NCBI GenBank assembly: GCA_016931415.1
Contig: JAFGEW010000103.1
Location: 1 to 38,716, forward strand
Reading direction: 5' to 3'
DNA from: Verrucomicrobiota bacterium
GTDB lineage: Bacteria; Auribacterota; JABMQX01; JAFGEW01
Length of the DNA: 38,716 nucleotides
The notes under the pieces are model-generated. The model had not been told where the DNA came from. It was given only the letters and a program-made list of their open reading frames with translations, and searched no databases. How positions within the stretch are numbered: the first letter of the stretch is position 1; the number at the start of each line of letters is the position of its first letter. The translations under genes and the position numbers were made by a program. Shown here piece by piece: positions 6,212 through 25,296 of this stretch.

Positions 6212-7795
6212 GTGGTTTGGAGCGCGGGTATCGTGGCACAAGCGGCGGCAAAGAGACCCACTTCAAGCATTCGGCAGACTCGGATGAGGAAGAACCCCAC
6301 CAAGGCATCGCGTCGGCTTCGCATCGTGATGGCCGCCAGCGAGGGCGTACCGTTCTCCAAGACGGGCGGCCTGGCCGACGTCGTCGGCTCGCTGCCCGCG
6401 GCGATTGCGCGACTCGGTCATGATGTGAGCGTCTTTCTCCCGTACTACGCCGCGACGCGTCAATCGGGCGTCAAGGTCAAGGAGACCGGCGTGACGGTCA
6501 CCGTGCCGATGCGCGGCGTGCCGGTCGAGGCGACCGTCCTCGAGCACCACATCCAAGGCCGCGGCCATGCCCGCGTCTACTTCATCCGCAACGACGACTA
6601 CTACGACCGCGAGGGCCTGTACCAGGACGCCGACGGCGACTACACCGACAACGCCGAGCGGTTCATGTTCTACTCGCGCGCCGTCCTGGCCGCCATCGAG
6701 GCGCTCAAGCTCCAGCCCGACATCATCCATTGCCATGACTGGCAGACGGCGCTGATCCCGGCGCTCGCACGGGGCAGCAGCAACGGCTCGCCCATCGTGC
6801 AGGCCGCCACGGTGTTCACGATCCACAACCTGGCGTTCCAGGGGGTGTTCTGGCACCTGGACATGGAGATGACCGGGCTGCCGTGGTCGACGTTCACCCC
6901 CGCGGGCATCGAGTACTACGGCAAGATCAACATGCTCAAAGCCGGCATTGTCTACGCCGACGTGATCAACACCGTCAGCCGCCGCTACAGCAAGGAGATC
7001 CAGACCGAGGAGTTCGGCTGCGGGCTTGACGGCGTGCTGCGCGCGCGCAAGAGCGACGTCTTCGGCATACTCAACGGCGTTGATTACGACCACTGGGACC
7101 CCGCGACCGATCCGTTCATCGCCGCCCCATACGGCCCCGGCACGATGGCGGGCAAGAAGCGCTGCCGTCAGGATCTTCTGGCGCAGTACGGCCTCAAGGT
7201 GCCGGACAAGGTGCCCGTGCTCGGCATGGTGGGCCGTCTGACCGAGCAGAAGGGTCTCGACATCCTCGCCGAGGCGTTGAGCGACATCATCAATCTCGAG
7301 ACGTGCTTCGTGCTGCTCGGCGGCACGGGCGCGCCCGAATACCACGAGAAGATCGAGAAGCTCGCCCGGCGTCATCCCGGCCGGGTCGGCGTGCGCTTCG
7401 GCTTCGACAACGCGCTCGCGCACAAGATCGAGGCCGGCAGCGACCTGTTCCTCATGCCATCGCGTTTCGAGCCGTGCGGCCTCAACCAGATGTACAGCCT
7501 GCGCTACGGCACCGTGCCCATCGTGCGCGCCACCGGCGGCCTCGACGACACGATCACTGAGTTCGACCCGCTCAGCGGCGCGGGCAACGGCTTCAAGTTC
7601 ACCACGTACTCGGCCAAAGCGTTGCTGGCCTGCGTGCGCAAGGCCGTCCGGATCTTCGGCGACAAGCGCGCCTGGACGCGCCTCGTGGCCAACGGCATGC
7701 AGTGCGACTTCTCGTGGGCCGCTTCGGCCCGCAAGTACGTCGAGCTGTACAATTCCGCGCTCAAGCGGCACGCCGGACGCCTCCCCGCACGTTAA
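6212..7795 (+). CDS. glgA: Glycogen synthase (ADP-glucose type)
   Basis: This GT5 enzyme extends alpha-1,4-glucan chains using ADP-glucose in the cytoplasm. The GT-B fold signs are the N-terminal PFSKTGGLADVVGSLP (the KTGGL loop contacts ADP-glucose), IHCHDWQTAL, FTIHNLAFQG, and the C-terminal GMVGRLTEQKG and PSRFEPCGLNQMYSLRYGT with ATGGLDDTI. The length (527, or 503 from ATG 6284) is normal with a short extension. GTG 6212 has an ideal GGAGGGG 8 nt upstream. ATG 6284 lacks a ribosome site but sits closer to the conserved first strand, so the start is uncertain. It heads a block with the GalT-like and GH57 genes, which supports storage-glucan metabolism. Confidence 0.93.
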   Translation: MVWSAGIVAQAAAKRPTSSIRQTRMRKNPTKASRRLRIVMAASEGVPFSKTGGLADVVGSLPAAIARLGHDVSVFLPYYAATRQSGVKVKETGVTVTVPMRGVPVEATVLEHHIQGRGHARVYFIRNDDYYDREGLYQDADGDYTDNAERFMFYSRAVLAAIEALKLQPDIIHCHDWQTALIPALARGSSNGSPIVQAATVFTIHNLAFQGVFWHLDMEMTGLPWSTFTPAGIEYYGKINMLKAGIVYADVINTVSRRYSKEIQTEEFGCGLDGVLRARKSDVFGILNGVDYDHWDPATDPFIAAPYGPGTMAGKKRCRQDLLAQYGLKVPDKVPVLGMVGRLTEQKGLDILAEALSDIINLETCFVLLGGTGAPEYHEKIEKLARRHPGRVGVRFGFDNALAHKIEAGSDLFLMPSRFEPCGLNQMYSLRYGTVPIVRATGGLDDTITEFDPLSGAGNGFKFTTYSAKALLACVRKAVRIFGDKRAWTRLVANGMQCDFSWAASARKYVELYNSALKRHAGRLPAR

Positions 7796-7987
7796 GAGAA
7801 GTGGAGCACGTCTCCGCAGGCGGGCAACTTGATTCATCACGCCACCCAGGCCGGGCAAGCGTCGTCGTCATCGCTAACCTGACCGCCGGAGTCGCGATCC
7901 CCGTTCCCGCTTGCCGATGCGGCGTGCTTTTTGCTACGAGTGACAAGACGGACTTCGGACAGCAGCACCACCGGGAGACATCTGCCC

Positions 7988-9010
7988 ATGCCTGAGCTGA
8001 GAAAGGACCCCATCGTCAATCGATGGGTCATCATAGCCACCGAGCGCGCCAAGCGCCCGACGGACTTCGCCACGCCCGACAACGGCCAGCAGTCGGCCAA
8101 GGGTTGCCCGTTCTGCCCGGGCAACGAGACGAAGACCCCGCCCGAGATCTACGCCGTGCGCAGAGACTCGACCCGCCCCGATACCGAAGGGTGGAGCGTG
8201 CGCGTGGTGCCGAACAAGTTCCCCGCGCTCCGGATCGAGGGCGACATGGAGAAGTTCGGCGTCGGCATCTACGACCGCATGAACGGCATCGGCGCCCACG
8301 AGGTCATCATCGAGACGACCGACCACTTCGAGAAGATCGAGATGCAGAGCGTCGATGCGCTCTACAACGTCTTCAACACCTACAAGCTGCGGCTCGCCGA
8401 CCTCAAGCAGGACGAGCGATTTCGCTACATCCTGCTTTTCAAGAACGAGGGCACCACGGCCGGCGCGTCGCTCGCGCATCCGCACTCGCAGCTCATCGCC
8501 ACGCCGGTGACGCCCAAACGCATCCGCGAGGAGCTCGTCGGCGCGCAGGCCTACTTCGAGTACAAGGATCGCTGCATCTTCTGCGACATCATCCGCGAGG
8601 AGCAGCGCCAGAAGGACCGGATCGTCTACGAGAACAACAGCTTCATCTCGTTCTGCCCGTTCGCCTCGAGGTTCCCGTTCGAGATCTGGACGCTGCCCAA
8701 GCGCCACCATCCCGACTTCGACTCGATGGAGCGCGACGAGGTGTTCGCGTTCGCCGATGCGATGAAGGTCACGCTCGGCAAGCTGAGCAAAGCGCTCACC
8801 GGGCCGCACTACAACTACATGCTGCACACCGGCCCCGTACGCTGGCGGCGGCGCGGCTATTGGGCCACGCTCGAGCACGACTTCCACTGGCACATCGAGA
8901 TCATCCCGAAGCTCACCAACACGGCCGGCTTCGAGTGGGGCACCGGCTTCTACATCAATCCGACGATCCCCGAGGAGGCGGCCAAGTTCCTCCAGGAGAC
9001 TCACGTGTGA
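7988..9010 (+). CDS. GalT-superfamily nucleotidyltransferase, ADP-glucose phosphorylase-like
   Basis: This is a 340-residue HIT-fold protein of the galactose-1-phosphate uridylyltransferase superfamily. A Cys40-x2-Cys43 zinc site, the active-site His164-Pro-His166-Ser-Gln motif (nucleotidyl-histidine intermediate), a second CIFC pair and a C-terminal HWHIEIIP segment are visible. Several blocks (ELRKDP.xNRWVI near the start, FKN.G..AGASL.H.HSQ, PFEIW..PK.H, YNYM.HT.P and FEWGTGFYINP.IPE) closely resemble, from memory, the Arabidopsis At5g18200 protein, shown to be an ADP-glucose phosphorylase. Many tools will label it galT. Start ATG 7988 follows GGGAG. The stop overlaps the next gene's start by 4 nt. 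Its place after glgA favours an ADP-glucose role over galactose use. Confidence 0.88.
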   Translation: MPELRKDPIVNRWVIIATERAKRPTDFATPDNGQQSAKGCPFCPGNETKTPPEIYAVRRDSTRPDTEGWSVRVVPNKFPALRIEGDMEKFGVGIYDRMNGIGAHEVIIETTDHFEKIEMQSVDALYNVFNTYKLRLADLKQDERFRYILLFKNEGTTAGASLAHPHSQLIATPVTPKRIREELVGAQAYFEYKDRCIFCDIIREEQRQKDRIVYENNSFISFCPFASRFPFEIWTLPKRHHPDFDSMERDEVFAFADAMKVTLGKLSKALTGPHYNYMLHTGPVRWRRRGYWATLEHDFHWHIEIIPKLTNTAGFEWGTGFYINPTIPEEAAKFLQETHV

Positions 9011-11310
9011 GGCCGCTCACCGTCGCGTTCCTCTGGCACATGCACCAGCCGGTCTACAAAGACCCGGCGACCTCTGCATATGCCATGCCGTGGGTGCGCC
9101 TCCACGCCTGCAAGAGCTACTTCGATATGGTCGACGTGCTCGACGAGTTCCCCGGCGTGCGCCTCACGTTCAACCTCGTGCCCTCGCTGCTCGTGCAGCT
9201 CGAGGACTACGCCGCCGGCACGGCGAAGGACTCGTTCCTGACGCACTTCCTCAAGCCGGCCGACAGCCTCACCGAGCCCGAGCGCCGCTTCCTGCTCCAG
9301 AACTTCTTCATGGTCAACTGGAACAGGGTCATCCGCCGCCACGGCCGGTACTGGCAACTGCTCTACAAGCGCGGCACCAACTACACGCCGCGCACCGGCC
9401 TCAACGAGATCAAGTTCAGGACCGAGGACTTCCGCGACCTCCAGGTCTGGCACAACCTCGCCTGGTTCGGTTTCCGCGCCCGGCGCAAGTACCCGGAGAT
9501 CAACGAGCTGATCGCCAAGGGCCACGGCTTTACCGAGGACGACAAACAGACCATCTACCGGCTCCAGACCGAACTGGCCGCCGGAATCATCCCGGCGTAC
9601 CGCGCCGCCCGGCAGCGCGGCCAGATCGAGATCACCACGTCGCCCTTCTACCACCCGATCATGCCGCTGGTGATCTCGACGGAGAACGCGTCCCGCTCCA
9701 GCACCGATTGCCACCCGCCCGCCGAGCGCTTCGCGCATCCGGAGGACATCGAGGTGCAGCTCGATCGCGCGCTCAAGCTCCACGAGTCGCTCTTCGGCGT
9801 TCGGCCCGCCGGGTTGTGGCCGCCCGAGGGCGCCGTTTGCCCCGAGATGGTGCCGCTGGTGAACCGCGCCGGCTTCAAGTGGATGCTCAGCGATGAGGAA
9901 GTGCTCGAGGCATCGATTCCGCCCGAGGAGGCCCGCCATCGCAGCCGCGCGCTCTACAAGCCCTACGCGGTCACCCACGAGGGCGAGACGGTCAACATGC
10001 TTTTCCGCGACCGCGAGCTCGCCGACGCGTTCGGCTTCCATTACCAGGACATGCGCGCCGGCGACGCGGTGAACCATTTCTTCGGCCAGCTCCGCTCGAT
10101 CCGCGAGGGCTGCGACGCCGCGGGCGCCGACTACCCGAATCCGCCCGTCGTGCCCGTGTTCCTCGACGGCGAGAACCCGTGGGAAGCCTACACGAACGAC
10201 GGGGGTGACTTCCTCGTCGAGTTCTACCGGCGGCTCGCCGCGGAGCCCGACCTGCGTACCACGACGATCAGCGGCTACCTCGACGAGTTTCCGCCGAAGG
10301 ACACGCTCAAGACCCTTCACCCCGGCTCGTGGATTCAACACACGTTCCGCGTCTGGATCGGCCATCCCGAGAAGAACGAGGCGTGGGAGAAGCTCGGCCG
10401 CGCCCGCAGCGCCGTCGAGCGCACCGCCGCCAACGGCGCGGGCCTGCGCGGGCCCAAGAAGGCGCGCGAGGTCAACCTCGACCTCGCTTGGCAGTCGATC
10501 TACGCCGCCGAGGGCAGCGACTGGTTCTGGTGGTACGGCGACGACTTCACGAGCGACAACGATGCCGAGTTCGACAACCTCTTCCGCAAACATCTCATGG
10601 GCGCCTACCGTTTCGCCGGCGTCGAGGCGCCCCGCGAGCTCAGCGAGCCGATCAAGCGGTTCCAGACCGTCTCGGTCTCCAAGCCGCCGACACGCTTTAT
10701 CTCCCCCGTTATCGACGGGCGTCGCTCGAACTTCTACGAGTGGGAGGGCGCCGGCATCTACGAGGCGCGCCGCCCCAGCGGCGCCATGCACCAGCGGGAG
10801 GCCTTCATCGAGCGCATCAGCTACGGCTTCGATCTCGAGACGCTCTACCTCCGGATCGCCTACCGGAACCCGGCCGAACTCGGCGTATGCATCGACGAAA
10901 AATACCGCAAGCAGTACGTCATCGACGTCGATCTGCGCGCCACAATGGCGCACAGCGTCCGGTTCGTCGTCGATCTCGACGAAGTGTGGCGCGAAAGCGA
11001 CTACCCCAAGATCCCGCGGGACGACATGATTACGTACCGCCTCCTGCGACAGCGCGCCGACAGCGCCGAGTTCGACCCGATCGCCATTGGCGACAGCCTG
11101 CGCACCGAGGAGGTGACCGAGCTTGCCGTGCCGTTCGACCGGCTCGGCTTCGAGCCCGGTGACGCCGTCGAGCTGGCGGTGACCATGTTCCCGCTCGGCC
11201 CGGGCGGAGAGCCGCCGAGCGCTATGCCTGTCGAGCGCTGCCCCAAGAAGGGCAACATCCACTTCACCGTGCCCGACGAGCAATTTGAGCTGGACAACTG
11301 GGTCGTTTAG
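9007..11310 (+). CDS. GH57 family glycoside hydrolase (alpha-amylase/transferase type)
   Basis: This 767-residue retaining alpha-glucan-acting enzyme is probably cytoplasmic because it has no signal peptide. The GH57 (beta/alpha)7 barrel begins at once with LWHMHQP (His11, His13). The nucleophile is expected at Glu274 in GLWPPEGAV and the acid/base at Asp387 in FLDGENPWEAY. The WFWWYGDDFTSDN region and a C-terminal beta-rich domain (about 560-767) follow. The start is GTG 9007, overlapping the stop of the upstream gene as GTGA, so translation is likely coupled. Substrate is probably glycogen-like glucan. Amylase, branching or transferase activity cannot be separated by eye. Confidence 0.9.
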   Translation: MRPLTVAFLWHMHQPVYKDPATSAYAMPWVRLHACKSYFDMVDVLDEFPGVRLTFNLVPSLLVQLEDYAAGTAKDSFLTHFLKPADSLTEPERRFLLQNFFMVNWNRVIRRHGRYWQLLYKRGTNYTPRTGLNEIKFRTEDFRDLQVWHNLAWFGFRARRKYPEINELIAKGHGFTEDDKQTIYRLQTELAAGIIPAYRAARQRGQIEITTSPFYHPIMPLVISTENASRSSTDCHPPAERFAHPEDIEVQLDRALKLHESLFGVRPAGLWPPEGAVCPEMVPLVNRAGFKWMLSDEEVLEASIPPEEARHRSRALYKPYAVTHEGETVNMLFRDRELADAFGFHYQDMRAGDAVNHFFGQLRSIREGCDAAGADYPNPPVVPVFLDGENPWEAYTNDGGDFLVEFYRRLAAEPDLRTTTISGYLDEFPPKDTLKTLHPGSWIQHTFRVWIGHPEKNEAWEKLGRARSAVERTAANGAGLRGPKKAREVNLDLAWQSIYAAEGSDWFWWYGDDFTSDNDAEFDNLFRKHLMGAYRFAGVEAPRELSEPIKRFQTVSVSKPPTRFISPVIDGRRSNFYEWEGAGIYEARRPSGAMHQREAFIERISYGFDLETLYLRIAYRNPAELGVCIDEKYRKQYVIDVDLRATMAHSVRFVVDLDEVWRESDYPKIPRDDMITYRLLRQRADSAEFDPIAIGDSLRTEEVTELAVPFDRLGFEPGDAVELAVTMFPLGPGGEPPSAMPVERCPKKGNIHFTVPDEQFELDNWVV

Positions 11311-12105: not shown

Positions 12106-13893
12106 GTGTTCAGCACGGGTGACGACGACACGGCACGGGTTGATGTGCCCACGTTTCCTGGACAGCGCTACGAGGTCGAAGTCCCGGACACACTGGACTT
12201 ATCCGAGCGAGCCGCGCTCGCCATCAACGCGATGACCCGCGTGGTGGCTCCGGAGCGGGATTACGAATTGTATTTCGTGGCGGAGTTCGCGGAGGACCCG
12301 CCCAAGCTCTACCACGAGTGGTCCGGGATCTTCAACACGACCAAGTTCCTCGAAGCGCTCCCCTTGGTGCGCACCATGAGCGGCAGCGACTTCAACGTCG
12401 CCGTCGACGCCAAGATGATGGAGAGCTACCTGCGCGGCACGAGGTCCGACGGCCTGTACTATCGGCCGGTTGAAGACCGCCTCTGGTCGTTCTACTCGTC
12501 CGACTGGACCACGGACGAAGTGGTCCAGACGAACCGCCAGCCATACGGCTTCCCCTACGGTGAAGGCCGGATGATGATGGCGATGTGCATGTGGTATCAG
12601 CACGACGGCGATCCGCGCTGGAAGCAACTGATCGAAGCCAAGATCAAGCGGCTCTTCGAGCTGGGCTACAAGAAGGACGACGCCCTGTACTTCGACCGCT
12701 TCTTCCTGCCCGGTCAGGGCATCTCGACACAGCCCCCGATGGGCTTCGACTCCTGGGTGCCCTACGGTCCGATCACCTACTATCAGCTCACGGGATATGA
12801 GCCGGCCCTCGACTTCGCCCGGCAACAGGTCAACCGCTTCCGGCGCACCTGGTTCCGCGAGGACGGCCGGTTCCTCCACGGCCACTTCCATATGGCCGCC
12901 GCAGCCTTGATCGAAATGCTCGAGTACGCGCTGACCGTCGGCGATCAGGAAGTGATCGACCTCGTCAAGGCCGGCTACGAGTACGCCAAGGAGATGGGCG
13001 TGCCGCTCGTCGGCTTCTTCCCTGAGTGGATGCGCAAGAGCTTCCCCACGTGCGAGAGCTGCGGCGTCGCGGATATGGTCTTTCTGGCCCTCAGGCTGAC
13101 GCGAGCGGGCCTCGGCGACCATTGGGAAGACGCCGACCGGTGGGTGCGCAACAACTTCGTCGAGAGCCAGATGACGCGGACCGATTGGGTCGATCCGCAG
13201 AAGATCTACGGATTCCTCAATGATGAAGCCAAGGAGCGCATCGCCCGCCAGAAGACGATGATCGATCAAAAGCGTCTCTGTGCCGACGAGACGGATGCGG
13301 TGGAGCGATGTGTCGGCTCATGGGCCGGCTGGGCGTTGGCCAACGATTGGGTGAACCCCGGCAGAGCCGGCATCATGCAGTGCTGCACCGGCAACGCCGC
13401 GAGGACCCTATACTACATATGGGACGCCATCGTGACGGCGGAGGGCGCCGGCGCCCGCATCAACTTCCTGCTCAACCGTGCCTCGGCGTGGCTCGACGTG
13501 GACAGCCACCTGCCCTACGAGGGCAAGGTCATCATCAGGAACAAGACGGCCAAGAAACTGTCGGTCCGCATCCCGGAAGAAACGCCACGCGAGTGTGTCA
13601 CCTGCGACGTCAACGGCATGAAGCGGGGGACGGCCTGGTCGGGCGCCTACCTCGAGGTCGGCGGGCTGAAGCCGGGCGACGTGATCACCATCCAGTTCCC
13701 ATTGATCGAAAAGACCGTCTTCCGGGTCATGGGCGACGTGCCGTACAAGGTGACGCTGCAAGGCAACACGGTCGTGGACATCGACCCCAGAGGGACGGTA
13801 TGCCCGCTGTATCAGCGCGACCACTATAAGCAGCACAGAGCGCCGATGAAGAAGACCACACGGTTCGTGCCGAGGGAGACAATCGCTCGCTAG
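12106..13893 (+). CDS. GH127-superfamily-like protein, paralogue A (leaderless)
   Basis: This 595-residue protein is the first of four tandem paralogues. It shows the DUF1680/GH127 hallmark: Glu317-x-Cys319 in CESCGVADM and Cys426-Cys427 in QCCTGNAARTLYYIW. These match the Zn ligands Glu338, Cys340, Cys417 and Cys418 of beta-L-arabinofuranosidase HypBA1, whose Cys417 is the nucleophile. An (alpha/alpha)6-type helical domain spans about 20-460 and a beta-rich C-terminal domain about 460-595 (SHLPYEGKVIIRNKTAKKLSVRIPE). Start GTG 12106 is preceded by AGGAGGG at 7 nt. There is no signal peptide, so it is predicted cytoplasmic. The true sugar substrate is unknown; retention of all four ligands suggests it is active. 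Confidence 0.85.
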   Translation: MFSTGDDDTARVDVPTFPGQRYEVEVPDTLDLSERAALAINAMTRVVAPERDYELYFVAEFAEDPPKLYHEWSGIFNTTKFLEALPLVRTMSGSDFNVAVDAKMMESYLRGTRSDGLYYRPVEDRLWSFYSSDWTTDEVVQTNRQPYGFPYGEGRMMMAMCMWYQHDGDPRWKQLIEAKIKRLFELGYKKDDALYFDRFFLPGQGISTQPPMGFDSWVPYGPITYYQLTGYEPALDFARQQVNRFRRTWFREDGRFLHGHFHMAAAALIEMLEYALTVGDQEVIDLVKAGYEYAKEMGVPLVGFFPEWMRKSFPTCESCGVADMVFLALRLTRAGLGDHWEDADRWVRNNFVESQMTRTDWVDPQKIYGFLNDEAKERIARQKTMIDQKRLCADETDAVERCVGSWAGWALANDWVNPGRAGIMQCCTGNAARTLYYIWDAIVTAEGAGARINFLLNRASAWLDVDSHLPYEGKVIIRNKTAKKLSVRIPEETPRECVTCDVNGMKRGTAWSGAYLEVGGLKPGDVITIQFPLIEKTVFRVMGDVPYKVTLQGNTVVDIDPRGTVCPLYQRDHYKQHRAPMKKTTRFVPRETIAR

Positions 13894-13962
13894 GTGGGCG
13901 CTGGCGTGTGGCACGAGGCCCCGCCTGGTTCAAGAGCAGTTTCGTACGGATGGATTGACGGG

Positions 13963-14040
13963 ATGATACCTGCCTCCCTCTTTCGATCGTGGGCTGTCGC
14001 GCTCGCAGCAGCGGCCACGGTCGTTCTGTGCTTGGGCTAG
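13963..14040 (+). other. Detached signal-peptide remnant of paralogue B
   Basis: A 25-codon frame starting at ATG 13963 encodes a hydrophobic leader (RSWAVALAAAATVVLCLG) and stops at TAG 14038. It aligns with the working signal peptide of paralogue C (RSWVIALVAATILCMRYG). From the shared CTGTGC to the shared AACAAC block, B is exactly one base shorter than C. Restoring a T in the TA-GGG (C has TATGG) removes the stop and joins the leader in frame with paralogue B. Confidence 0.75.
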
Positions 14041-14096
14041 GGAAGCAGACTGCGGACCCGAAGACCGGACCCGCGCAAGGAGGAACGCTGAACAAC

Positions 14097-15869
14097 ATGG
14101 CCGGCAAAAACGACAAGGTCGATCTGCTTTCTTTCCCTGGAGAGCGCTACGAGGTCGAAGTCCCGGACACGCTGGACTTGACCGAAAGAGCCGCCCTCGC
14201 CATCAACGCGATGACGCGGGTGGTCGTCCCAGAGAAAGACTACGAGATGTGCTTCATCACGGAGTTCAGGGACGATCCGCCCAAGCTCTACCTGGAGTGG
14301 GACGGCATCTTCAACACGGGCAAGTTCCTCGAAGCGCTTCCCTTGATGCGCGTGATGACCGGCAGCGACTTCAACGCCGAGGTTGATGCCAAGATCATGG
14401 AGAGCTACCTACACGGTGCCGGACCGGATGGCCTGTTCTATTGCCAGGTTGAGAACCGGCCATGGTCCTACTACGCCGAGTGGAACGCCGCCGAAGAGAT
14501 CAGCAGCATCCGCGGGCCGTACGGCTTCTTCTTCGGCGAGGGCCGGCTGATTCTGGCGATGTGCATGTGGTATGAACACGACCACGATCCGCGCTGGAAG
14601 CCGCTTATCGAGAAGAAAATCGACCGGCTGCTCGCGATGGGCTACAAGCAGGACGACACCATCGCGTTCTCCCGGCTCTTCGAGCCCGGGAAGAACGTCA
14701 TGGAAGCGCCGGAATCCAACTGGGACAACTGGGTGCCCTACGGCGTCACGAAGTACCACCAGCTCACCGGGTATGAGCCGGCCGGCGAGTTTGCCCGGCT
14801 TCAGGTGAACTACCTCCGGAAGCACTGGTTCACCGAAGACGGCCGTTTCCGGGTATGGCACTTGCACTTGACCCTGGCTGCCCTGACCGAGATTCTCGAA
14901 TACGCAATTGCCACGAACGATCAGGAGCTTATCGAGCTTGCGAGAAACGGCTACGAGTTCGGCAAGGCGCTCGGCGAACCCCTCATCGGCTTCTTCCCGG
15001 AAGTGCGGCGGAAGAGCTTCCCAACGTGCGAGAGCTGCGGCGTCGGGGACATGATCTACCTGGCGATCCGGCTCACGGAAATCGGCGCGGGCGATTACTG
15101 GGAAGACGCCGACCGGTACATCCGCAATCACTTCGTCGAGAGCCAACTGACGAGAATGGACTGGGTTGACCCGCATCAGCTCGCGGCACTTCAGAGCGAC
15201 GAGTGGAAGGAGGCCGCATCCCGCCGGAAGACGATGATTGCGGAGGGGCAGCTCTACGGAGTCGAGGAGGATGCGCTGGAACGCAGCCTTGGTTCATGGG
15301 CCGGATGGACATTCGCCAACGATGCGGGAAACCCCAACAGACCCGGCATCATGCAGTGCTGCACGGCGAACGCGGCGCGAAGCCTCTACTACGCCTGGAA
15401 CGCCATCGTGACGCCGGAAGAAGACGGCGTCCGAGTCAACCTGCTGCTCAATCGCGCCTCTCCGTGGCTCGACGTGGACAGCCACCTCCCTTACGAGGGG
15501 AAGGTCGTCCTTAGAAACAAGACGGCGAAGAACGTATCGGTCCGCATTCCGGAAGGAATCCCGCAGAAGCACGTCACCTGCAATGTCAACGGCAAAACGC
15601 AAGAGACAGTTTGGGCCGGCGGCTATCTCGCCGTGGGCGGACTGAAGAAGGGCGACGTGGTTACGATCGAGTTCCCGATAGAGGAACGGAGCCTTTTCAG
15701 AGTCATCGGCGACGTCCCGTACAAGCTGGCCTTGAAGGGCAACACGGTTGTGGACATCAACCCGGAAGGGACGCTGTATCCGCTTTACCAGCGGGATCAT
15801 TACAGAACCGGCAAGGCCCCGATGAAGAGAGTCACCCGGTTTGTCTTTGCGAAGACAAGCCGGCAGTAG
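14097..15869 (+). CDS. GH127-superfamily-like protein, paralogue B (leader lost by frameshift)
   Basis: This is a 590-residue protein, highly similar to paralogues A, C and D throughout. The metal/nucleophile set is intact: Glu312-x-Cys314 and Cys421-Cys422 (QCCTANAARSLYYAW). ATG 14097 begins the conserved part. A good AAGGAGG at 14077-14083 is better spaced for CTG 14088, which aligns with the ATG of the MNN segment in paralogue C, so the original initiation codon may have changed. The frame also stays open upstream to GTG 13989, but the residues before 14080 are an out-of-frame reading of the old leader. As it stands the product would be cytoplasmic. If the one-base deletion is a sequencing error, it would be an exported protein starting at 13963. 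Confidence 0.82.
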   Translation: MAGKNDKVDLLSFPGERYEVEVPDTLDLTERAALAINAMTRVVVPEKDYEMCFITEFRDDPPKLYLEWDGIFNTGKFLEALPLMRVMTGSDFNAEVDAKIMESYLHGAGPDGLFYCQVENRPWSYYAEWNAAEEISSIRGPYGFFFGEGRLILAMCMWYEHDHDPRWKPLIEKKIDRLLAMGYKQDDTIAFSRLFEPGKNVMEAPESNWDNWVPYGVTKYHQLTGYEPAGEFARLQVNYLRKHWFTEDGRFRVWHLHLTLAALTEILEYAIATNDQELIELARNGYEFGKALGEPLIGFFPEVRRKSFPTCESCGVGDMIYLAIRLTEIGAGDYWEDADRYIRNHFVESQLTRMDWVDPHQLAALQSDEWKEAASRRKTMIAEGQLYGVEEDALERSLGSWAGWTFANDAGNPNRPGIMQCCTANAARSLYYAWNAIVTPEEDGVRVNLLLNRASPWLDVDSHLPYEGKVVLRNKTAKNVSVRIPEGIPQKHVTCNVNGKTQETVWAGGYLAVGGLKKGDVVTIEFPIEERSLFRVIGDVPYKLALKGNTVVDINPEGTLYPLYQRDHYRTGKAPMKRVTRFVFAKTSRQ

Positions 15870-15931
15870 GTTCCAGTCGGCATACAGCAAGGGGGCGGCC
15901 AGCGTCCGGCTGCAATGGGAAGGGTGTGGCG

Positions 15932-17842
15932 ATGAAAGATGCGGTCATCATACGGTCATGGGTAATCGCGCTTGTGGCGGCGACTATTCTGTGCATGCGC
16001 TATGGCGACGCGTCTGCGGGATCGGAAGCGGAGGCTGAGCAAGGAGAGACCATGAACAACACAGGCAATGACATGGTGCGGGTTGACACGCCGTCCTATC
16101 CGGGCGAACGGTACGAGGCGGAAGTCCCCGACACGCTGGATTTGGCTGAGCGGGCTGCTCTGGCCATTAATGCACTGACGAGAGTAGTGGACCCCGAAGG
16201 GGGCTACGAGTTGTACTTCGTCGCGGAGTTCGCCGAGGATCCGCCCAAGCTCTACCGCGAGTGGTGCGGCATCTTCAACACGGGAAAGTTTCTCGAAGCC
16301 TTGCCCCTGATGCGCATGATGAGCGGCAGCGACTTCAACCTCGATGTCGACGTCGGGATCATGGAGAGCTACCTGCGCGATGCCGGCAGCGATGGGCTGT
16401 ATTACGCGCCTGTCAAGGACCGGCCATGGGCCTTTTACATCGAGCAGGGGACCGAGCAGGTGCCCTTCACGCGAGACGTGTTCGGTTTCATCTTCGGCGA
16501 AGGCCGGCTCATCATGGCGATGTGCGTGTGGTACCAACACGACCATGATCCCCGGTGGAAACGGCTCATCGAGAAGAAAATCGACCGGCTCCTGGAGTTG
16601 GGATACAAACGTGACGGTGCGATCAGGTTCACCAGGTATTTCGTCCCGGGCCAGGTCACGACGGAGAAACCGGCATTCGAGCTCGACGGCTGGCTGCCCT
16701 ACGGCGCAATCACGTATTACCAGCTCACAGGCTACAAGCCGGCCCTTGAGCTTGCCCGCGCCCAGGTGAACTTCCTGCGGACGTGGTTCGAGAAGGACGG
16801 GCGGTGGCGCCAAGGCCATTTCCATCTCACGTGCGCCGCGCTGATCGACATGCTCGAATACGCAATTGCGGTAGGCGACAAGCAGCTCATCGAGCTTGTG
16901 AAGAACGGCTACGAGTACGGCAAGGCGGTCGGCGAGCCCCTCGTCGGCTTCTTCCCCGAAGACGCCGGCAAGGGCTTCCCGACCTGCGAGAGCTGCGCGG
17001 TGGCCGATATGATCTTCCTGGCGATCCGCCTCACCGAGATCGGCGCGGGCGACTACTGGGAAGATGTCGACCGGTACGTCCGCAATCAATTCGTCGAGAA
17101 CCAGATGACGCGTACGGATTGGGCTGATCCGCAGCAGATCATGGCGCGCCAGACCGATGAGGCCAGGAAACGCATCGCCGGCCAGATCGCGATGGCCAAG
17201 AAGATGCCCGGTATCGCCGACGAGCGTGACGTCATGGAGCGATGCCTCGGCGCATGGTCGGGGTGGGGGCCCGCCAACGATTGGGTTGGCTCCGAACGCG
17301 CCGGCATCATGCAGTGCTGTACCGGCAACGCTTCGACATTCCTCTACTACGCGTGGAATGCCATCGTAACTCCAGACGGGGACGGCGCCCGCGTTAACCT
17401 CCTGTTGAACCGGGCTTCACCGTGGCTCGATGTGGACAGCTACCTGCCCTACGAAGGCAAGGTCGTCATGAAGAACAAGACGGCGAAGAAGATCTCGGTG
17501 CGTATTCCAGAATGGACCGGTCGAGCACAGATCGCCTGTGACGTGAACGGCCACAATCGGGAGTTCACTTGGTCCGGAAACTATATCGGAGTTGACAACC
17601 TGAAGCGCGGTGATGTGGTCACAGTCCGGTTCCCGATGGTCGAGATAGCGGTGTTCCACGTCATCGGGAACGTCTATTACAAGTTGACCATCAAGGGCAA
17701 CACCGTCGTGGATATGGACCCGCCGGGACAGAGCTATCCCCTGTACCAGCGAGACCACTACAAAGCTGATAAGGCCCCTATGAAGAAGACGACGCGGTTC
17801 GTGTCGAAAGACAGGATCGTGCGACGGGCGCTGGAGCAGTAG
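15932..17842 (+). CDS. GH127-superfamily-like protein, paralogue C (exported)
   Basis: This is a 636-residue paralogue with an N-terminal Sec signal peptide: KD...R, the hydrophobic core WVIALVAATILCM, and a cleavage site after DASA (AxA type, about residue 29). The metal/nucleophile residues Glu353-x-Cys355 and Cys462-Cys463 are present. ATG 15932 follows GGAAGGG. An internal ATG at 16052 also has AAGGAGAG upstream and could give a leaderless form, equal to the starts of A and D. The helical domain is followed by the shared C-terminal beta domain ending in YPLYQRDHY and RFVSKDRIV. It lies 62 nt after paralogue B. The exported location suggests action on external or periplasmic glycans, possibly arabinose-containing ones (inference). 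Confidence 0.85.
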   Translation: MKDAVIIRSWVIALVAATILCMRYGDASAGSEAEAEQGETMNNTGNDMVRVDTPSYPGERYEAEVPDTLDLAERAALAINALTRVVDPEGGYELYFVAEFAEDPPKLYREWCGIFNTGKFLEALPLMRMMSGSDFNLDVDVGIMESYLRDAGSDGLYYAPVKDRPWAFYIEQGTEQVPFTRDVFGFIFGEGRLIMAMCVWYQHDHDPRWKRLIEKKIDRLLELGYKRDGAIRFTRYFVPGQVTTEKPAFELDGWLPYGAITYYQLTGYKPALELARAQVNFLRTWFEKDGRWRQGHFHLTCAALIDMLEYAIAVGDKQLIELVKNGYEYGKAVGEPLVGFFPEDAGKGFPTCESCAVADMIFLAIRLTEIGAGDYWEDVDRYVRNQFVENQMTRTDWADPQQIMARQTDEARKRIAGQIAMAKKMPGIADERDVMERCLGAWSGWGPANDWVGSERAGIMQCCTGNASTFLYYAWNAIVTPDGDGARVNLLLNRASPWLDVDSYLPYEGKVVMKNKTAKKISVRIPEWTGRAQIACDVNGHNREFTWSGNYIGVDNLKRGDVVTVRFPMVEIAVFHVIGNVYYKLTIKGNTVVDMDPPGQSYPLYQRDHYKADKAPMKKTTRFVSKDRIVRRALEQ

Positions 17843-17917
17843 GATCACACGGAAGTATCAGGAAGCGCGGGAGGGCGAGGACGTCGCCTGATCTTGAGGG
17901 TCCTGGAGAGTAGTGCA

Positions 17918-19777
17918 ATGAACGGCCCCGGCGACAGAACCGCCAGGATCAGTGTCCCTGCGTACGCGGGCGAGCGCTACGAGGCGGAGGTCCCAGACAC
18001 GCTCGACCTGGTCGAGCGAGCAGTTCTGGCCATCAACGCCATGACCAGGGTGGGGGACGCGGACCGCGACGGCGAGCTGTTCTTCATGACGGAGTTCGCG
18101 GAAGACCCTCCGAAGCTGTACCACGAGTGGAGCGGAATCTTCAATACGACGAAGTTCCTCGAATCGCTGCCGCTCATGCGCATCATGAGCGGCAGCGACT
18201 ACAACCTCGATGTCGACGCCAAGCTCATGGGCAGCTACCTCCGCGGCGCTGGGAAGGATGGCCTGTACTACCGGCCGGTCGAACACCGGCCATGGTCCTT
18301 CTGCTCGATGCAGGGGCACGAGGCGGTCAAAACGACCCGCGATCCATACTGCTTCATCTTCGGCGAAGGCCGGCTGATCATGGCGATGTGCATGTGGTAC
18401 CGGCGCGACCGCAACGAGCTCTGGAGGACGCTGATCGAGGCGAAAATTCAGAGACTGCTTCAGATGGGCTATCGAAAGGGCGACGCCATCTGCTTCGACC
18501 GGATCATCGTGCCGGGACACGTTATCGCGAAAGAGCCCCCGGTTGGCGCGGTAAGCCTTGATTCCTGGGTGCCCTATGGCGTGATGGAGTACTACCGACT
18601 CACGGGGTACGAACCGGCGCTCGATCTTGCGCGCCGGCAGGTGAACCATCTCCGGAGTTGGTTCGGCACAAACGGGCGCTTTCTCGAATACCATTTCCAC
18701 CTGAGCACGGCCGCGCTCATCGACATTCTCGAGTACGCGGTCACCGTGAATGACAGGGCTCTCGTCGAGCTTGTGGGAAACGCCTACGCCTTCGCAAAGG
18801 AGATCGGCGAGCCCCTTGTCGGGTTCTTTCCCGAAGTGGTCAGAAAGAGCTACCCGGCATGCGAGAGCTGCGACGTGGCTGACATGGTATTCCTGGCCTT
18901 GCGGCTCACCGAGGCCGGTCAAGGCGACTACTGGGAAGACGTGGATCGGTGGGTGCGCAACCAATTCATCGAAAACCAGATGACGAGGACCGACTGGGTC
19001 GACTACGAAAAGATCATGGCCCTCCAGACTGACGAAGCCAAGGATCGAATCGCGCGCCAGATCGAGACGGCGAGGAAGATGCCCGGTATCGCCGACGATC
19101 GGGACGTGATGGAGCGGTGCCTCGGATCATGGTCCGGATGGGCAGTGGCGAACGAGTGGGTCAGCCCCCAGCAGGCTGGCATACAGCAGTGCTGCACCGG
19201 CAACGCCGCGAGGACCCTCTACTACATATGGGACAGCGTAGTGACGGCAGACGCCTCAGACACCTGGGTCAACCTTTTGCTCAATCGCGCGTCTCCCTGG
19301 CTCGATGTGGACAGCCATCTCCCCTACGAGGGGAAGGTCGTCATCAAGAACAAGACGGCGAAGAAGCTGTCTGTTCGTATTCCCGAAGGGACGCCGCGCG
19401 AGCAGGTCGCCTGCGACGTGAACGCCGAGAGGCGAAAGACCGCTTGGTCGGGGAACTACGTCGAAATCGGCGGACTGAAGAAGGGCGACCTCGTTACAGT
19501 CGAGTTCCCGCTACTCGAGAGATCCCTCTTCAGGGTCATCGGCGACCTTCCGTACAGGCTGACGCTGAAGGGCAACACGGTCGTGGGAATAGACCCTGAA
19601 GGAAGGATCTGTCCTCTCTACCAAAGAGACCACTACAAGGCCAATAAGGCGCCCATGAAGAAGATGACCCGGTTCGTCTCGGAAGAGATTATTCGGAGAC
19701 CGAAGAGCCACTGGCCCGGCTTTCGTCCTGGGAATCGGGATGGTGACAAGCTGCCCTCCAGCAAACCGCAACGATGA
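17918..19777 (+). CDS. GH127-superfamily-like protein, paralogue D (leaderless)
   Basis: This 619-residue fourth paralogue has Glu316-x-Cys318 (ACESCDVADM) and Cys425-Cys426 (QQCCTGNAARTLYYIW) intact. The Glu in the FFPE segment about ten residues before the first Cys pair is conserved in all four copies and is a candidate acid/base. ATG 17918 has GGAG at 9 nt spacing and no signal peptide. It carries about 20 extra residues at the C-terminus (RRPKSHWPGFRPGN...) that the other three lack, probably readthrough into formerly intergenic sequence. It is convergent with the phosphoesterase pair across a hairpin-rich gap. Confidence 0.85.
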   Translation: MNGPGDRTARISVPAYAGERYEAEVPDTLDLVERAVLAINAMTRVGDADRDGELFFMTEFAEDPPKLYHEWSGIFNTTKFLESLPLMRIMSGSDYNLDVDAKLMGSYLRGAGKDGLYYRPVEHRPWSFCSMQGHEAVKTTRDPYCFIFGEGRLIMAMCMWYRRDRNELWRTLIEAKIQRLLQMGYRKGDAICFDRIIVPGHVIAKEPPVGAVSLDSWVPYGVMEYYRLTGYEPALDLARRQVNHLRSWFGTNGRFLEYHFHLSTAALIDILEYAVTVNDRALVELVGNAYAFAKEIGEPLVGFFPEVVRKSYPACESCDVADMVFLALRLTEAGQGDYWEDVDRWVRNQFIENQMTRTDWVDYEKIMALQTDEAKDRIARQIETARKMPGIADDRDVMERCLGSWSGWAVANEWVSPQQAGIQQCCTGNAARTLYYIWDSVVTADASDTWVNLLLNRASPWLDVDSHLPYEGKVVIKNKTAKKLSVRIPEGTPREQVACDVNAERRKTAWSGNYVEIGGLKKGDLVTVEFPLLERSLFRVIGDLPYRLTLKGNTVVGIDPEGRICPLYQRDHYKANKAPMKKMTRFVSEEIIRRPKSHWPGFRPGNRDGDKLPSSKPQR

Positions 19778-20000: not shown

Positions 20001-21548
20001 TCACTTCACCCGGATGATCCGTCGTCCCGCATACGTCTGCCCGAACATATCGGTGGTGGTCACTTCGATCGTGTGTGTGCCGGGGGTGGGGCCGGCCGGT
20101 AGGTGCGCCTGCCACAAGTGCGGGCAATCGCCGCCGACCTGATCGAGGGCTTCGGCGGCGGGGTCGAGTCGGTTGGCCTTCTGTCGCATATCGATCCATG
20201 GCCCCTTGTCGATGCGCATCTTCACCAAGGACCTTGACGAGCCGGCGAAGACGTTGACGAGCACTTCGGTATCCGCCGCTTCGCTGGCCGCGATCTCCTC
20301 GGGTGCGTAGACGTTCATCTGGTAATCGGCCGGACGGCGCGCCGCCTTGAAGCGGACCGAGTACGCGTTGTCATCGAACGTGATGAGTGACCAGCCGTTC
20401 GGCGTACCGTCAGCCATTGTCGCGTGGGGGATGCCCAGCTCGTCGGTGGCGCCGTACCACCAGTAACCGCACACCGCGCCGAAGTTGATGTGGTGGTGCG
20501 AGTCCGCGGTGGGCCAGCCATCTTCCCCTTCGAGGAAGGCATGTTCCTGGATGTGCGTGTGCGCTGAGAACGAGACCACACGCGAGTGCTTCGCCAGATT
20601 CCGGTACAGCGCTGCGCGCTCCTCATCACGGATCTGGACGATGGGGACGTGCATCGCCAGGACGACGAGCCGGTCGTCTTCCACCAGCGCCAAGTCATTG
20701 CGAATGAACTGGAGCTGCCGCTCACCGAGACCCGGGCGCCACGGCTCCGGCCAGTCGTCCGCTTTCCCTGTCCAATAGATGGTGTCGAGCACGAGGAAAT
20801 GCACCGGACCGTAATCGAACGAGTAGTACACCGGGCCGTAGATGCTCTCGAACGCCTCGTCGGACAGCGTGTCCGCGCTTACATCCTGGTTCGTATCGTG
20901 GTTGCCGATCACGCCATAGAACGGCAGGCCGATCTGGGCAATCACCTCGTTGACCGGCCCCATGAGCTCCAGCTCGTTGTCAACGATATCACCAAGCAAC
21001 AACCCGAAAACCGCAGCGCTGTCCGCGCCCGCCCCTTCCTGGAAGCCGATCACTTCCTCGACGACGTCGTGGGCAAGGTACCCCACCTGCTGGAGAGTCT
21101 CGGTCTGCGTGTCGCCAAACACGATGATACGGAAGCTATCCGGTTCCTCGCGCTTCACGAGCGGGAAGTCGATCGACTCGGGGAGCGGCCCCGTCGGCTC
21201 GACGCCCGGATACTTGAGGCGTGGCGACCCAGCCGGCTTGTGGATGTAGAAGAACCGCGGCAGGTTGACCTCGTTGACCGGCGTCATCCACCCGCGCGGC
21301 TTGATCACGAAGATGATCGCGTCGTCCCCGATGGGCAACGAGTAGGTGCCGGCCGCATCGGTCAGGGCGATCTCGCGGCCGTTCGAGACCCGCATCGAGG
21401 CGAGGCCTTTTTCGCCGTCGTCACGCACGCCGTTGCCGTTCGCATCGTGATAGACGATGCCTCTGACCGGCTGAGGCTGGTCCGCATGCGGAACGGTCCC
21501 GCACCCGGAGGCCACGAGGAGAAAGAGAACTGGGACGACGAGGCGCAT
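20001..21548 (-). CDS. Exported calcineurin-like phosphoesterase, copy 2
   Basis: This is a 515-residue predicted lipoprotein or exported protein: a short N-terminus, a hydrophobic core, then VASGC at about residue 17. An SdrD/Cna-B-like beta domain (about 30-75, with DANGNGVRDDGE) comes first. The metallophosphoesterase core follows (FGDTQ, GDIVDN, GNHDTN, MHVPI, SAHTH, in the usual order for a two-metal site), then a C-terminal beta domain (about 395-515) of the kind found with MetallophosN/MetallophosC enzymes. ATG 21548 is chosen because AGGAGA lies 8 nt upstream. It begins 25 nt after the stop of its paralogue, so the pair is one operon. The phosphorylated substrate is unknown. Confidence 0.85.
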   Translation of the reverse strand: MRLVVPVLFLLVASGCGTVPHADQPQPVRGIVYHDANGNGVRDDGEKGLASMRVSNGREIALTDAAGTYSLPIGDDAIIFVIKPRGWMTPVNEVNLPRFFYIHKPAGSPRLKYPGVEPTGPLPESIDFPLVKREEPDSFRIIVFGDTQTETLQQVGYLAHDVVEEVIGFQEGAGADSAAVFGLLLGDIVDNELELMGPVNEVIAQIGLPFYGVIGNHDTNQDVSADTLSDEAFESIYGPVYYSFDYGPVHFLVLDTIYWTGKADDWPEPWRPGLGERQLQFIRNDLALVEDDRLVVLAMHVPIVQIRDEERAALYRNLAKHSRVVSFSAHTHIQEHAFLEGEDGWPTADSHHHINFGAVCGYWWYGATDELGIPHATMADGTPNGWSLITFDDNAYSVRFKAARRPADYQMNVYAPEEIAASEAADTEVLVNVFAGSSRSLVKMRIDKGPWIDMRQKANRLDPAAEALDQVGGDCPHLWQAHLPAGPTPGTHTIEVTTTDMFGQTYAGRRIIRVK

Positions 21549-21573
21549 GTGTTCTTCTCCTGTCTGCGCCGGC

Positions 21574-23127
21574 TTACTCCGCTTTGGTGCTCTCACCCTC
21601 TACCACCCGGATGATGCGCCGCCCCGTATACGTCTGCCCGAACATGTCAGTGGTGGTCACTTCGATCGTGTGTGTGCCGGGCGTGAGCCCGGTGGGGAGA
21701 TTGGCCTGCCACATATGGTTGCAGTGGTTGCCGCCGTACCCCAGCGCCTTCATGTAAGGATCGCCGGTCGTGACCATCGTCATCTTGGACCACGCCCCCT
21801 TGCCGACGCGCATCTGGACGGCAGAACGTTCAGAACCTGCGAAGACGTTGGCAAGCACGTCGGTGGTCGGCGCGTCTGCAACCGATACCTCCTCGGGTGT
21901 ATGGATGTTCATCTGGTGGTCGGCCGGGCGGCGCGCGGCCTTGAAGCGGATCGAGTACGCGGTGCCGTCGAACGTCACGAGCATCCAGCCGTTCGGTGTG
22001 CCGTCGCCCATGGTCGCGTGCGGAATGCCGAGCTCGTCTTTGTCGCCATGCCACCAGTAGCCGCACGCGGCGCCGACGTTGACGTGGTGATGCGGCGTCG
22101 CACCAGGCCACCCGTTGTCCGTGCTAACGAACACGTGCTGCTGGGTGTGCGTGTGTCCCGAGAATGAGATGCAGTGCAGGTGCCCGGCCATCAGCGCATA
22201 GAGCTCGCCGCGCTCATCGAGTTCGAGTATCGGGATGTGCATGCTGAGCACGACGAGCTGGTCCTTGGGCACGAGCGCAAGGTCGTTCTTGACGAACTCG
22301 AGCTGCCGCTCGCCGAGCCCGCCATGATAGTCGCCGCGGTCCTCCTCCTGATTCCAGTGCCACATCACGCTGTCGAGGTGGATGAAGTGCACCGGGCCGT
22401 AGTCGAACGAGTAGTACGCCGGCCCGTAGAGGCGTTCCCACGTCTCGTCCGACAACTCATCGTCCTTGACGTCCTGGTTCGTGTCGTGGTTGCCGAGCAC
22501 GTTGTAGAACGGCACGCCGATCTGCGCCACCGCCCCGTCGAGCGCTGCGGCGATCTCGAGGCGGTCGTAGAGCAGGTCGCCGAGCGAGATCCCGAACACG
22601 GCGGGTGCTGAGACCGTGTTCTGGTGGCCGATCACCTCCTCGATCACGTCGTGCTCGAGGTAGTTCACGTCATCGAGCGACCGTGTCTGTGTGTCGCCGA
22701 ACACGATGATGCTGAACGCATCCGGCTCGTCATGCTTCACGAGCGGGAAGTCCACCGACACCGGGAGCGGCCCGGTCGGCTCGACGCCGGCATACTCGAG
22801 CTTCGGCGATCCCGCCGGCTTGTGGATGGAGTAGAAACGCGGGAGGTTGAGACCGTCGACCGGCGTCATCCATCCGCGCGGCTTGATCACAAAGAGAATC
22901 GTATCGTCGCTGACAGGGAGCGCGTAGGCGCCGTCCTCGCCGGTGAGCACGATCTCGCGCCCATTCGACACCCGCACCCCGGCGATCCCCGCCTCACCGT
23001 CGTCACGCACGCCGTTCCCGTTCGCGTCTTCGAACACCACACCTTTGGCTGTGGTCGCCTCTGCTCCGGACGCGGCATTGCACCAGATCACCCACACGCT
23101 GAGAAACACCACACAGAGCGCTCGCAT
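21574..23127 (-). CDS. Exported calcineurin-like phosphoesterase, copy 1
   Basis: This 517-residue paralogue of the downstream gene has the same three-part plan: a Cna-B-like domain with DANGNGVRDDGEAG, a metal-dependent phosphoesterase core (FGDTQ, GDLLYD, GNHDTN, MHIPI, SGHTH), and a C-terminal beta domain ending in TTDMFGQTYTGRRIIRV. A cleavable signal peptide (MRALCVVFLSVWVIWCNAAS, then GAEA) is seen instead of a lipobox. ATG 23127 has AAAGGGA upstream. In both copies the first metal motif reads GDTQ, with Gln where many relatives have His. Identity between copies is high over the whole length, pointing to tandem duplication with one copy changed to a lipoprotein. Confidence 0.87.
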   Translation of the reverse strand: MRALCVVFLSVWVIWCNAASGAEATTAKGVVFEDANGNGVRDDGEAGIAGVRVSNGREIVLTGEDGAYALPVSDDTILFVIKPRGWMTPVDGLNLPRFYSIHKPAGSPKLEYAGVEPTGPLPVSVDFPLVKHDEPDAFSIIVFGDTQTRSLDDVNYLEHDVIEEVIGHQNTVSAPAVFGISLGDLLYDRLEIAAALDGAVAQIGVPFYNVLGNHDTNQDVKDDELSDETWERLYGPAYYSFDYGPVHFIHLDSVMWHWNQEEDRGDYHGGLGERQLEFVKNDLALVPKDQLVVLSMHIPILELDERGELYALMAGHLHCISFSGHTHTQQHVFVSTDNGWPGATPHHHVNVGAACGYWWHGDKDELGIPHATMGDGTPNGWMLVTFDGTAYSIRFKAARRPADHQMNIHTPEEVSVADAPTTDVLANVFAGSERSAVQMRVGKGAWSKMTMVTTGDPYMKALGYGGNHCNHMWQANLPTGLTPGTHTIEVTTTDMFGQTYTGRRIIRVVEGESTKAE

Positions 23128-23288
23128 TGCTGTCCCTTTCTGGCTGTTCGCGCGCATCGTACGCCCCGGCCCCGGTGCGCGCAAGCCTCTTGCAGCCCGC
23201 TCTGGAACCGTCTACCATGCGCTCAGGCTCGCCGATGACTGGGGCCGAACGAACCTAAGACGCGACGATTGACGGAGCGATCAGCGCG

Positions 23289-24012: not shown

Positions 24013-25203
24013 ATGAGACATCGAAGTCCAGGACGGACTGCGCGTGGCGGAGTGTCCTGGCTTCCTGCGCTGATGGCAGCGTTCGGCTGCCTGGCCGTGG
24101 CCGGCCCTTCGTCGGCCGCCGAGTGCCCGCAGTTCGAGTCGGGCGAACGGGTCGGCACCGTGGCGCATGGCGCCATCAAGGAAGCGTCCGGCATCGTGGC
24201 GAGCCGCCATAACCTTAACGTCCTGTGGGTGCACAATGACTCGGGCGACTCGGCCCGCGTCCTCGCCATGAACACGCAGGGCACCCACCTCGGCATCTAC
24301 ACGATCACCGGCGCCGGCGCGGTGGACTGGGAAGACATCGCGATCGGGCCCGGCCCCGCTGCCGGCTCCGGCCCTGCCGGCTCCGGCCCTGCCGGCAACT
24401 ACCTCTACCTAGGCGACATCGGCGACAACAACGCCGTTCGCACCGGCGGCGTGTGCGTCTACCGCGTGCCCGAGCCTGCCGTCGACGCCCATCAGGATCC
24501 CGTCAGTGTTGCCGTCACCGGCGCGGTCGCGATCACGCTGCGCTATCCCGACGGGCCCCGCGACGCCGAGACGCTCATGGTTGACCCTGCCAACGGCGAC
24601 ATCTACATCGTCTCCAAGCGCGAGGCGAAGTCGCGCGTCTACCGCGACGCCAAGTCGCGCGTCTACCGCGACGCCAAGTCGCGCGTCTACCGTGCTGCCT
24701 ACCCGCAGACGAGCGGCATGACGATGGAGCTTGTCGCTGAGCTGCCGTGGGGCGGCGCAACCGGCGGCGAGATCTCGCCGCGCCGCACCGAGCTCATCAT
24801 CCGCGGCTACCTCAAAGCCTCCCTCTGGCGCATTCCCGACGAGGGCACCGTGGCCGATGCGTTCGACGAGGCGCCGTGCGGCGTGCCGGTCGCCCTCGAG
24901 CCGCAGGGCGAGGCGGTCGCCTTCGACGCGTTCGGCTTCGGCTACTTCACCCTCAGCGAAGGCGCGCGCCGCCCGATCTACTACTTCGCACGCGTCGCCG
25001 ACGCGCCCAGCCTCGCGATCTCGTACATCCCGCCGGACACGTACCGCCTCACGTGGCCCGAGCCCGGCTTCTTCAACCTCGAGTTCGACACCTCGTCGGC
25101 CTTCGACGACCCCAACGTCGTCGACGTCACCGGCCTGACCCAGTACGACTACACCACCACCGAACGCCGCGGCGTCTTCCGGCTGGTGCGAACCGGATAC
25201 TGA
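24013..25203 (+). CDS. Secreted beta-propeller-like hypothetical protein
   Basis: This 396-residue protein has a signal peptide (about 1-36, ending PSSA before AE). The mature part has repeating strands with ASGIVASR, VLWVHNDSGDSARVLAM, DWEDIAIGPG, YLGDIGDNNA and DAETLMVDPANGDIYIVSKR, which resemble propeller blades of secreted phytase- or esterase-like proteins; the function is not established. Two in-frame tandem expansions are present. A 15-bp repeat gives AGSGP AGSGP near residues 117-127, and a 24-bp repeat gives AKSRVYRD three times at about residues 205-228. They interrupt otherwise ordinary loops. The start has only a weak ribosome site. Confidence 0.65.
   Translation: MRHRSPGRTARGGVSWLPALMAAFGCLAVAGPSSAAECPQFESGERVGTVAHGAIKEASGIVASRHNLNVLWVHNDSGDSARVLAMNTQGTHLGIYTITGAGAVDWEDIAIGPGPAAGSGPAGSGPAGNYLYLGDIGDNNAVRTGGVCVYRVPEPAVDAHQDPVSVAVTGAVAITLRYPDGPRDAETLMVDPANGDIYIVSKREAKSRVYRDAKSRVYRDAKSRVYRAAYPQTSGMTMELVAELPWGGATGGEISPRRTELIIRGYLKASLWRIPDEGTVADAFDEAPCGVPVALEPQGEAVAFDAFGFGYFTLSEGARRPIYYFARVADAPSLAISYIPPDTYRLTWPEPGFFNLEFDTSSAFDDPNVVDVTGLTQYDYTTTERRGVFRLVRTGY
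24625..24696 (+). repeat. 24-bp in-frame coding repeat, three copies
   Basis: Three nearly identical 24-bp units start at 24625, 24649 and 24673, each encoding AKSRVYR plus one residue. Units two and three are identical up to the final codons. This looks like a recent slippage expansion. Confidence 0.9.
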
Positions 25204-25296
25204 CGCCCGCACGATCAACCGCTTGACACTCGCCCCGCCGCCCGCCTATACGAGAAGCGCGTCCGCACGTCAGTGACCTTGGGGTATCGGCCCGGC

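Follow-up and report, generated by a model that had tools for sequence, protein, structure and literature searches.

The four long genes that lie head to tail on the forward strand of contig JAFGEW010000103.1 probably encode divergent members of glycoside hydrolase clan GH-P that stand apart from families GH127 and GH146, and their products would be retaining exo-glycosidases with a zinc-bound cysteine as nucleophile. This clan, built around the zinc-bound cysteine nucleophile, unites two families, GH127 and GH146 (PMC10850190). The window, by which we mean the whole stretch of DNA analysed, is the entire 38,716 bp contig, and it belongs to a 4.06 Mb metagenome-assembled genome (MAG; 98.9% complete, 4.5% contamination) from a Verrucomicrobiota bacterium. 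The four complete open reading frames (ORFs), here copies 1 to 4, occupy 12106-13893, 14097-15869, 16052-17842 and 17918-19777; they are 59-66% identical to one another, and a genome-wide search found no fifth copy in the same genome. From the starts that we chose, the proteins are 595, 590, 596 and 619 residues long: copy 1 begins at a GTG with AGGAGG upstream and the others at ATG codons, with alternative longer starts available in copy 2 (GTG 13989, 626 residues), copy 3 (ATG 15932, 636 residues) and copy 4 (TTG 17894, 627 residues). The ratio of nonsynonymous to synonymous substitution rates (dN/dS) between copies is 0.21-0.34 (NG86, pairwise) and their third-position GC content is 0.80-0.87, so that each of the four behaves like a genuine protein under purifying selection. 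We rejected an assembly artefact because the copies are too unlike each other, and pseudogenes because of the same dN/dS and third-position GC values; the only broken part is the signal-peptide stretch before copy 2.

The original prediction, made from the DNA letters, had described four paralogues with a Glu-x-Cys motif in each and a Cys-Cys pair exactly 109 residues beyond its Glu, and these counts are borne out in the complete ORFs. The residues are Glu317 (13054-13056), Cys319 (13060-13062) and Cys426-Cys427 (13381-13386) in copy 1; Glu312 (15030-15032), Cys314 (15036-15038) and Cys421-Cys422 (15357-15362) in copy 2; Glu313 (16988-16990), Cys315 (16994-16996) and Cys422-Cys423 (17315-17320) in copy 3; and Glu316 (18863-18865), Cys318 (18869-18871) and Cys425-Cys426 (19190-19195) in copy 4. 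What would these residues do? In HypBA1, the GH127 beta-L-arabinofuranosidase of Bifidobacterium longum, zinc is held by three cysteines and a glutamate, Cys417 is the nucleophile and Glu322 is the acid/base (PMC8106489), and mutating each equivalent residue in a GH146 enzyme abolishes activity (PMC10850190). A search with the family profile aligns the Cys-Cys pair on HypBA1 Cys417-Cys418, and in a joint alignment of 40 sequences (23 from the new clade, 11 GH127, 5 GH146-type and a further relative, L009) the columns of HypBA1 E338, C340, C417 and C418 are kept throughout, except for His in place of Glu in the relative L016. The His270 column is likewise kept, except for Tyr in L016. These alignments support the earlier proposal that the motif matches the zinc ligands and cysteine nucleophile of GH127; at the level of sequence equivalence, the clan GH-P arrangement of Glu-x-Cys and Cys-Cys, with the first Cys of the pair as putative nucleophile, is in place. 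The local alignment from the profile search put a family His on HypBA1 His194, a placement that seems to be one helical hairpin out of register, as both the profile-profile and the joint alignments put His256 of copy 3 (16817-16819) on His270. The spacing of 109 exceeds the 68-90 found in the canonical GH127/GH146 genes collected (a range from which a few rows that matched an upstream E-x-C were left out), the 81 of GH146 (E723-C804, PMC10850190) and the 79 of HypBA1 (E338 to C417, from residue numbers), the last in agreement with the roughly 30 extra residues first noted. Among the relatives, L016 (7740-10442), in which His replaces the zinc Glu, also has an insert of about 200 residues in its C-terminal part, and a Hydrogenedentota paralogue (L060, 1495-3585) has neither the Cys-Cys pair nor Glu-x-Cys and is possibly an inactive or changed member.

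Structure prediction points the same way. An AlphaFold2 model of copy 3, for which ten relatives were included in the input and to which the other three copies are about 63-65% identical, has a predicted local distance difference test score (pLDDT) of 86.4 and a predicted template modelling score (pTM) of 0.91, and its 21 best matches in the PDB are all GH127 or GH146 beta-L-arabinofuranosidases. These include Ara127N of Geobacillus stearothermophilus (4qjy, E 3.5e-18), HypBA1 (3wrg, 2.4e-15) and BtGH146 (5opj, with the highest TMq, 0.59); 2-epimerases and other (alpha/alpha)6 enzymes rank far behind. The model thus bears out the GH127-type fold that had been proposed and predicts the clan GH-P feature of an (alpha/alpha)6 barrel with GH127/146 topology, which in each copy would be followed by beta-sandwich-type domains. 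Remote sequence similarity tells a consistent story: among PDB sequences, a profile of the family matches 4qjy (2.8e-7) and HypBA1 (about 1.3e-6), and the E-values of profile-profile comparisons against canonical GH127 run from 2.2e-18 to about 1e-27. A single copy searched with phmmer against the PDB returned chance matches only (best 0.025).

Where, then, do the four copies belong? The suggestion that they might form a distinct subfamily turns out to have been an understatement, as they fall in a third clade, next to those of GH127 and GH146, and below the cut-off of the GH127 catalytic domain model, PF07944. Its gathering score is 24.9 bits; copy 3 scores only 15.7-16.1, copies 1, 2 and 4 have no match, and the same genome has three other genes that do pass, at 143-342 bits. 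Neither Pfam nor NCBIfam classifies the catalytic part of the four copies, and the middle domain PF20736 is just above its cut-off in copy 3. In our tree the four copies lie outside both the GH127 and the GH146 clades, and the new group, GH127 and GH146 form three separate groups with SH-aLRT support of 100, 98 and 99; since this tree was built quickly from a difficult alignment and has long branches, the exact order of the groups is unsure, and it is their separation that is robust. Mean identity is 17% between the new clade and GH127 and 15% between the new clade and GH146, compared with 20% between GH127 and GH146; the four copies themselves are 11-18% identical to the five GH146-type proteins, one of which, L020, proved to be GH146 when a PDB check matched it to 5opj. 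The copies share with GH127 (HypBA1, Ara127N) the fold, the zinc-site motif, His270 and a glutamate in the loop that leads to Glu-x-Cys, but they differ in identity (about 17%), in the longer motif spacing, in a shorter loop before Glu-x-Cys, and, relative to HypBA1, in the absence of His142, His194 and Arg273. With GH146 (BT0349/BtGH146, 5opj; Bll3HypBA1) they share the fold, the zinc-cysteine motif and the absence of the GH127 pocket residues, but again at low identity (about 15%) and from a separate clade. Copy 3 also weakly matches the NCBIfam model NF049879 of the GH127 aceric acid hydrolase BT1003 (1.3e-7, 30 bits, best in the C-terminal beta domain), far under the 950-bit cut-off of that model. 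GH127 substrates already extend beyond arabinose, the Zobellia enzymes DagA1-3 being GH127 3,6-anhydro-D-galactosidases (PMC5698469); these resemble the present copies in superfamily and in forming several paralogues in one genome cluster, and differ in lying in a carrageenan locus with sulfatases, a likeness drawn from their published description.

Within the new clade, the four window copies form a single group with 100/100 support, adjacent to a Caldilineaceae pair of relatives, L057/L058. This family tree, which had been proposed as a check on lineage-specificity, therefore identifies the four copies as a lineage-specific tandem expansion, in a clade prone to expansion. Tandem duplication within the lineage would have produced the copies, and their divergence under purifying selection suggests that they act on related but non-identical substrates.

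The mechanism that we envisage is as follows. In copy 3 numbering, Glu313, Cys315, Cys422 and Cys423 would bind one zinc ion, and Cys422, activated by the zinc, would form a thioglycosyl intermediate by attack on the anomeric carbon of a sugar at the non-reducing end. The leaving group would be protonated by a nearby acid, for which Glu303 of an FFPE motif is the most likely residue, and the same acid would next activate water, so that the enzyme would be a retaining exo-glycosidase. The substrate would most likely be a furanoside or another small terminal sugar from an imported oligosaccharide. The FFPE Glu (Glu307 at 13024-13026, Glu302 at 15000-15002, Glu303 at 16958-16960 and Glu306 at 18833-18835 in copies 1 to 4) had been put forward as the acid/base. 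It is indeed found in each of the four copies and in the majority of relatives, and it sits in the expected loop, between a GHAVR-type hairpin and Glu-x-Cys, that is, between the same two helical hairpins as HypBA1 Glu322. This loop is very variable in length (10 residues in the four copies, 17 in Poribacteria, 16 in HypBA1 and 29 in Bll3HypBA1), and from its position the FFPE Glu is a good candidate for the equivalent of Glu322 (E694 in Bll3HypBA1). Glu396, invariant in the first 11 sequences, was considered as another acid/base and dropped, as the wider set has Gln or Asp there (L059, L065).

Several observations weigh against this assignment. The TM-scores of the structural matches are moderate (0.50-0.59), and the meeting of E303, E313, C315, C422 and C423 at one site is read from alignment. 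The FFPE Glu occupies a different alignment column from E322 in both the profile-profile and the joint alignments, and it is missing from L009, L015, L016, L017 and L018, all of which retain the Cys-Cys pair. The HypBA1 subsite residues His142, His194 and Arg273 align with G/C, D and L/M in the four copies (by alignment only) and are replaced across the new clade. Finally, no sugar transporter, regulator or substrate-specific neighbour is recognised beside the window copies. With a sugar pocket that differs from that of GH127, the substrate of HypBA1 cannot be carried over, and assigning its specificity to the four copies would be unsafe. GH146 also differs from GH127 at these pocket residues (PMC10850190), so that their loss by itself need not change the sugar.

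Could the copies nonetheless be ordinary beta-L-arabinofuranosidases of HypBA1-like specificity that have diverged in sequence, with a separate clade that is functionally meaningless? We regard this as unlikely, even with a fold and a zinc-cysteine centre that are identical in kind, and with two Caldilineaceae relatives that adjoin a GH51-type alpha-L-arabinofuranosidase and sugar ABC transporters. The characterised GH127 and GH146 enzymes in the tree of PMC10850190 are, moreover, all beta-L-arabinofuranosidases except the aceric acid hydrolase BT1003. However, the pocket residues of HypBA1 are not retained, although this argument is not strict, as GH146 enzymes that lack them still cleave beta-L-arabinofuranosides; the clade lies farther from GH127 and from GH146 than these lie from each other; L057/L058, to which the window copies are most closely related, adjoin a sulfatase; and GH127 itself already holds 3,6-anhydro-D-galactosidases (PMC5698469).

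Far less credible still is the idea that the proteins are no longer glycosidases, the zinc-cysteine site being kept for binding or structure or the scaffold serving a non-hydrolytic enzyme: the same fold class does include GlcNAc/cellobiose 2-epimerases, to which the model has weaker structural matches, the acid/base Glu is not strictly kept in the wider clade, and Pfam and NCBIfam leave the catalytic part unclassified, but the nucleophile-equivalent Cys and all zinc ligands are kept in four copies under purifying selection, the FFPE Glu is retained in 4 of 4, and the GH127/GH146 matches stand many orders of magnitude above the epimerases.

Returning to divergent clan GH-P glycosidases as the preferred reading, we tentatively entertain a broader possibility, on which the odds are slightly adverse: that the clade is a third, uncharacterised clan GH-P family of cysteine glycosidases that depend on zinc, acting on a substrate class of its own other than beta-L-arabinofuranosides, and with a patchy distribution over unrelated phyla, multiple copies in most genomes that carry it, and members (L015, L017 and L018) that would work without the usual acid/base Glu. 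If true, a third branch that combines the shared chemistry with another pocket would reveal the reach of the unusual mechanism and would offer new sugar specificities. Natural paralogues of the branch would provide material for mapping substrate determinants, and members that lack the expected acid/base residue would allow a direct test of how essential that residue is.

A scan of genome contigs with a four-copy profile found seven loci with relatives, in Poribacteria, Caldilineaceae, a Planctomycetia MAG and a Hydrogenedentota MAG; a separate scan with one copy as query found none. The clade is rare and patchy, occurring in 3 of 59 genomes sampled from the Poribacteria phylum (all three already in the profile scan), 2 of 60 from the class of Caldilineaceae (one already in that scan) and 2 of 44 from the window's phylum, one of them the window's own and the other with a remote relative. 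Where present it is often multi-copy, with 3-6 strong matches per genome in the Poribacteria and Caldilineaceae genomes that hold it. One Poribacteria genome has a tandem pair of relatives (L059 and L064, G104:C26:166436-170026) with one TAA inside each match.

Traces of a signal peptide survive between the copies. Read directly, the long form of copy 3 has a signal-peptide-like N-terminus, MKDAVIIRSWVIALVAATILCMRYGDASA (15932..16018, + strand), and the inner ATG of this copy at 16052 is closely preceded by AAGGAG, a strong ribosome-binding site. A coding remnant of a signal peptide, MIPASLFRSWAVALAAAATVVLCLG followed by TAG, precedes copy 2 at 13964..14041 (+ strand), out of frame with that copy. 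At the DNA level this remnant shares homology with the signal-peptide region in copy 3 (local alignment score 84, shuffled maximum 42), and the site of copy 3's inner start ATG is CTG in copy 2 (window 13964-14097). No signal peptide was seen by eye in copies 1 and 4. The simplest reading is that an ancestral form was exported and that some copies have lost their signal or had it broken; judged by their N-termini, copies 1, 2 and 4, like copy 3 in its short form, have no in-frame signal peptide and would be cytoplasmic, and copy 3 in its long form could be exported.

The setting of the four copies is unspecific sugar metabolism. The glycogen genes previously noted nearby are real: a GT5 glycogen/starch synthase (6212..7795, + strand), a GalT-like gene (7931-9010) and two GH57 genes, one for a 769-residue protein (9001..11310, + strand) and one for an amylase/glucanotransferase (25273-27444). 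Adjoining the copies are two tandem calcineurin-like phosphoesterases (MetallophosN/MetallophosC, 59% identical; 20001..23184, - strand), and other neighbours include TPR, GH38 and CBM9 proteins. Two long ORFs of the window, 24013-25203 (+) and 2235-3692 (-), have no Pfam match. Four copies beside such genes, with no transporter or regulator, had seemed unusual; the absence holds beside the window copies, but four copies are less odd in a clade in which more than one copy in a genome is usual, and Caldilineaceae relatives do adjoin ABC sugar transporters, a GH51-type protein or a sulfatase. The surroundings of the relatives are more informative than those of the window copies. In two of them (L015, L017) the transporters lie upstream and the GH51-type protein downstream, and at L068 a sulfatase and ABC permeases adjoin the closest relative of the window copies. 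HypBA1 acts by intracellular cleavage after import (PMC8106489), a route that fits the relatives with ABC transporters. Dehydrogenase or enolase-superfamily genes stand beside the relatives at L070 and L074, and unrelated neighbours beside those at L016, L018 and L019. PhyH-type dioxygenases also occur near relatives, in a Poribacteria genome (L014, 9942-11735) and in a Caldilineaceae genome (L075, 4668-5966).

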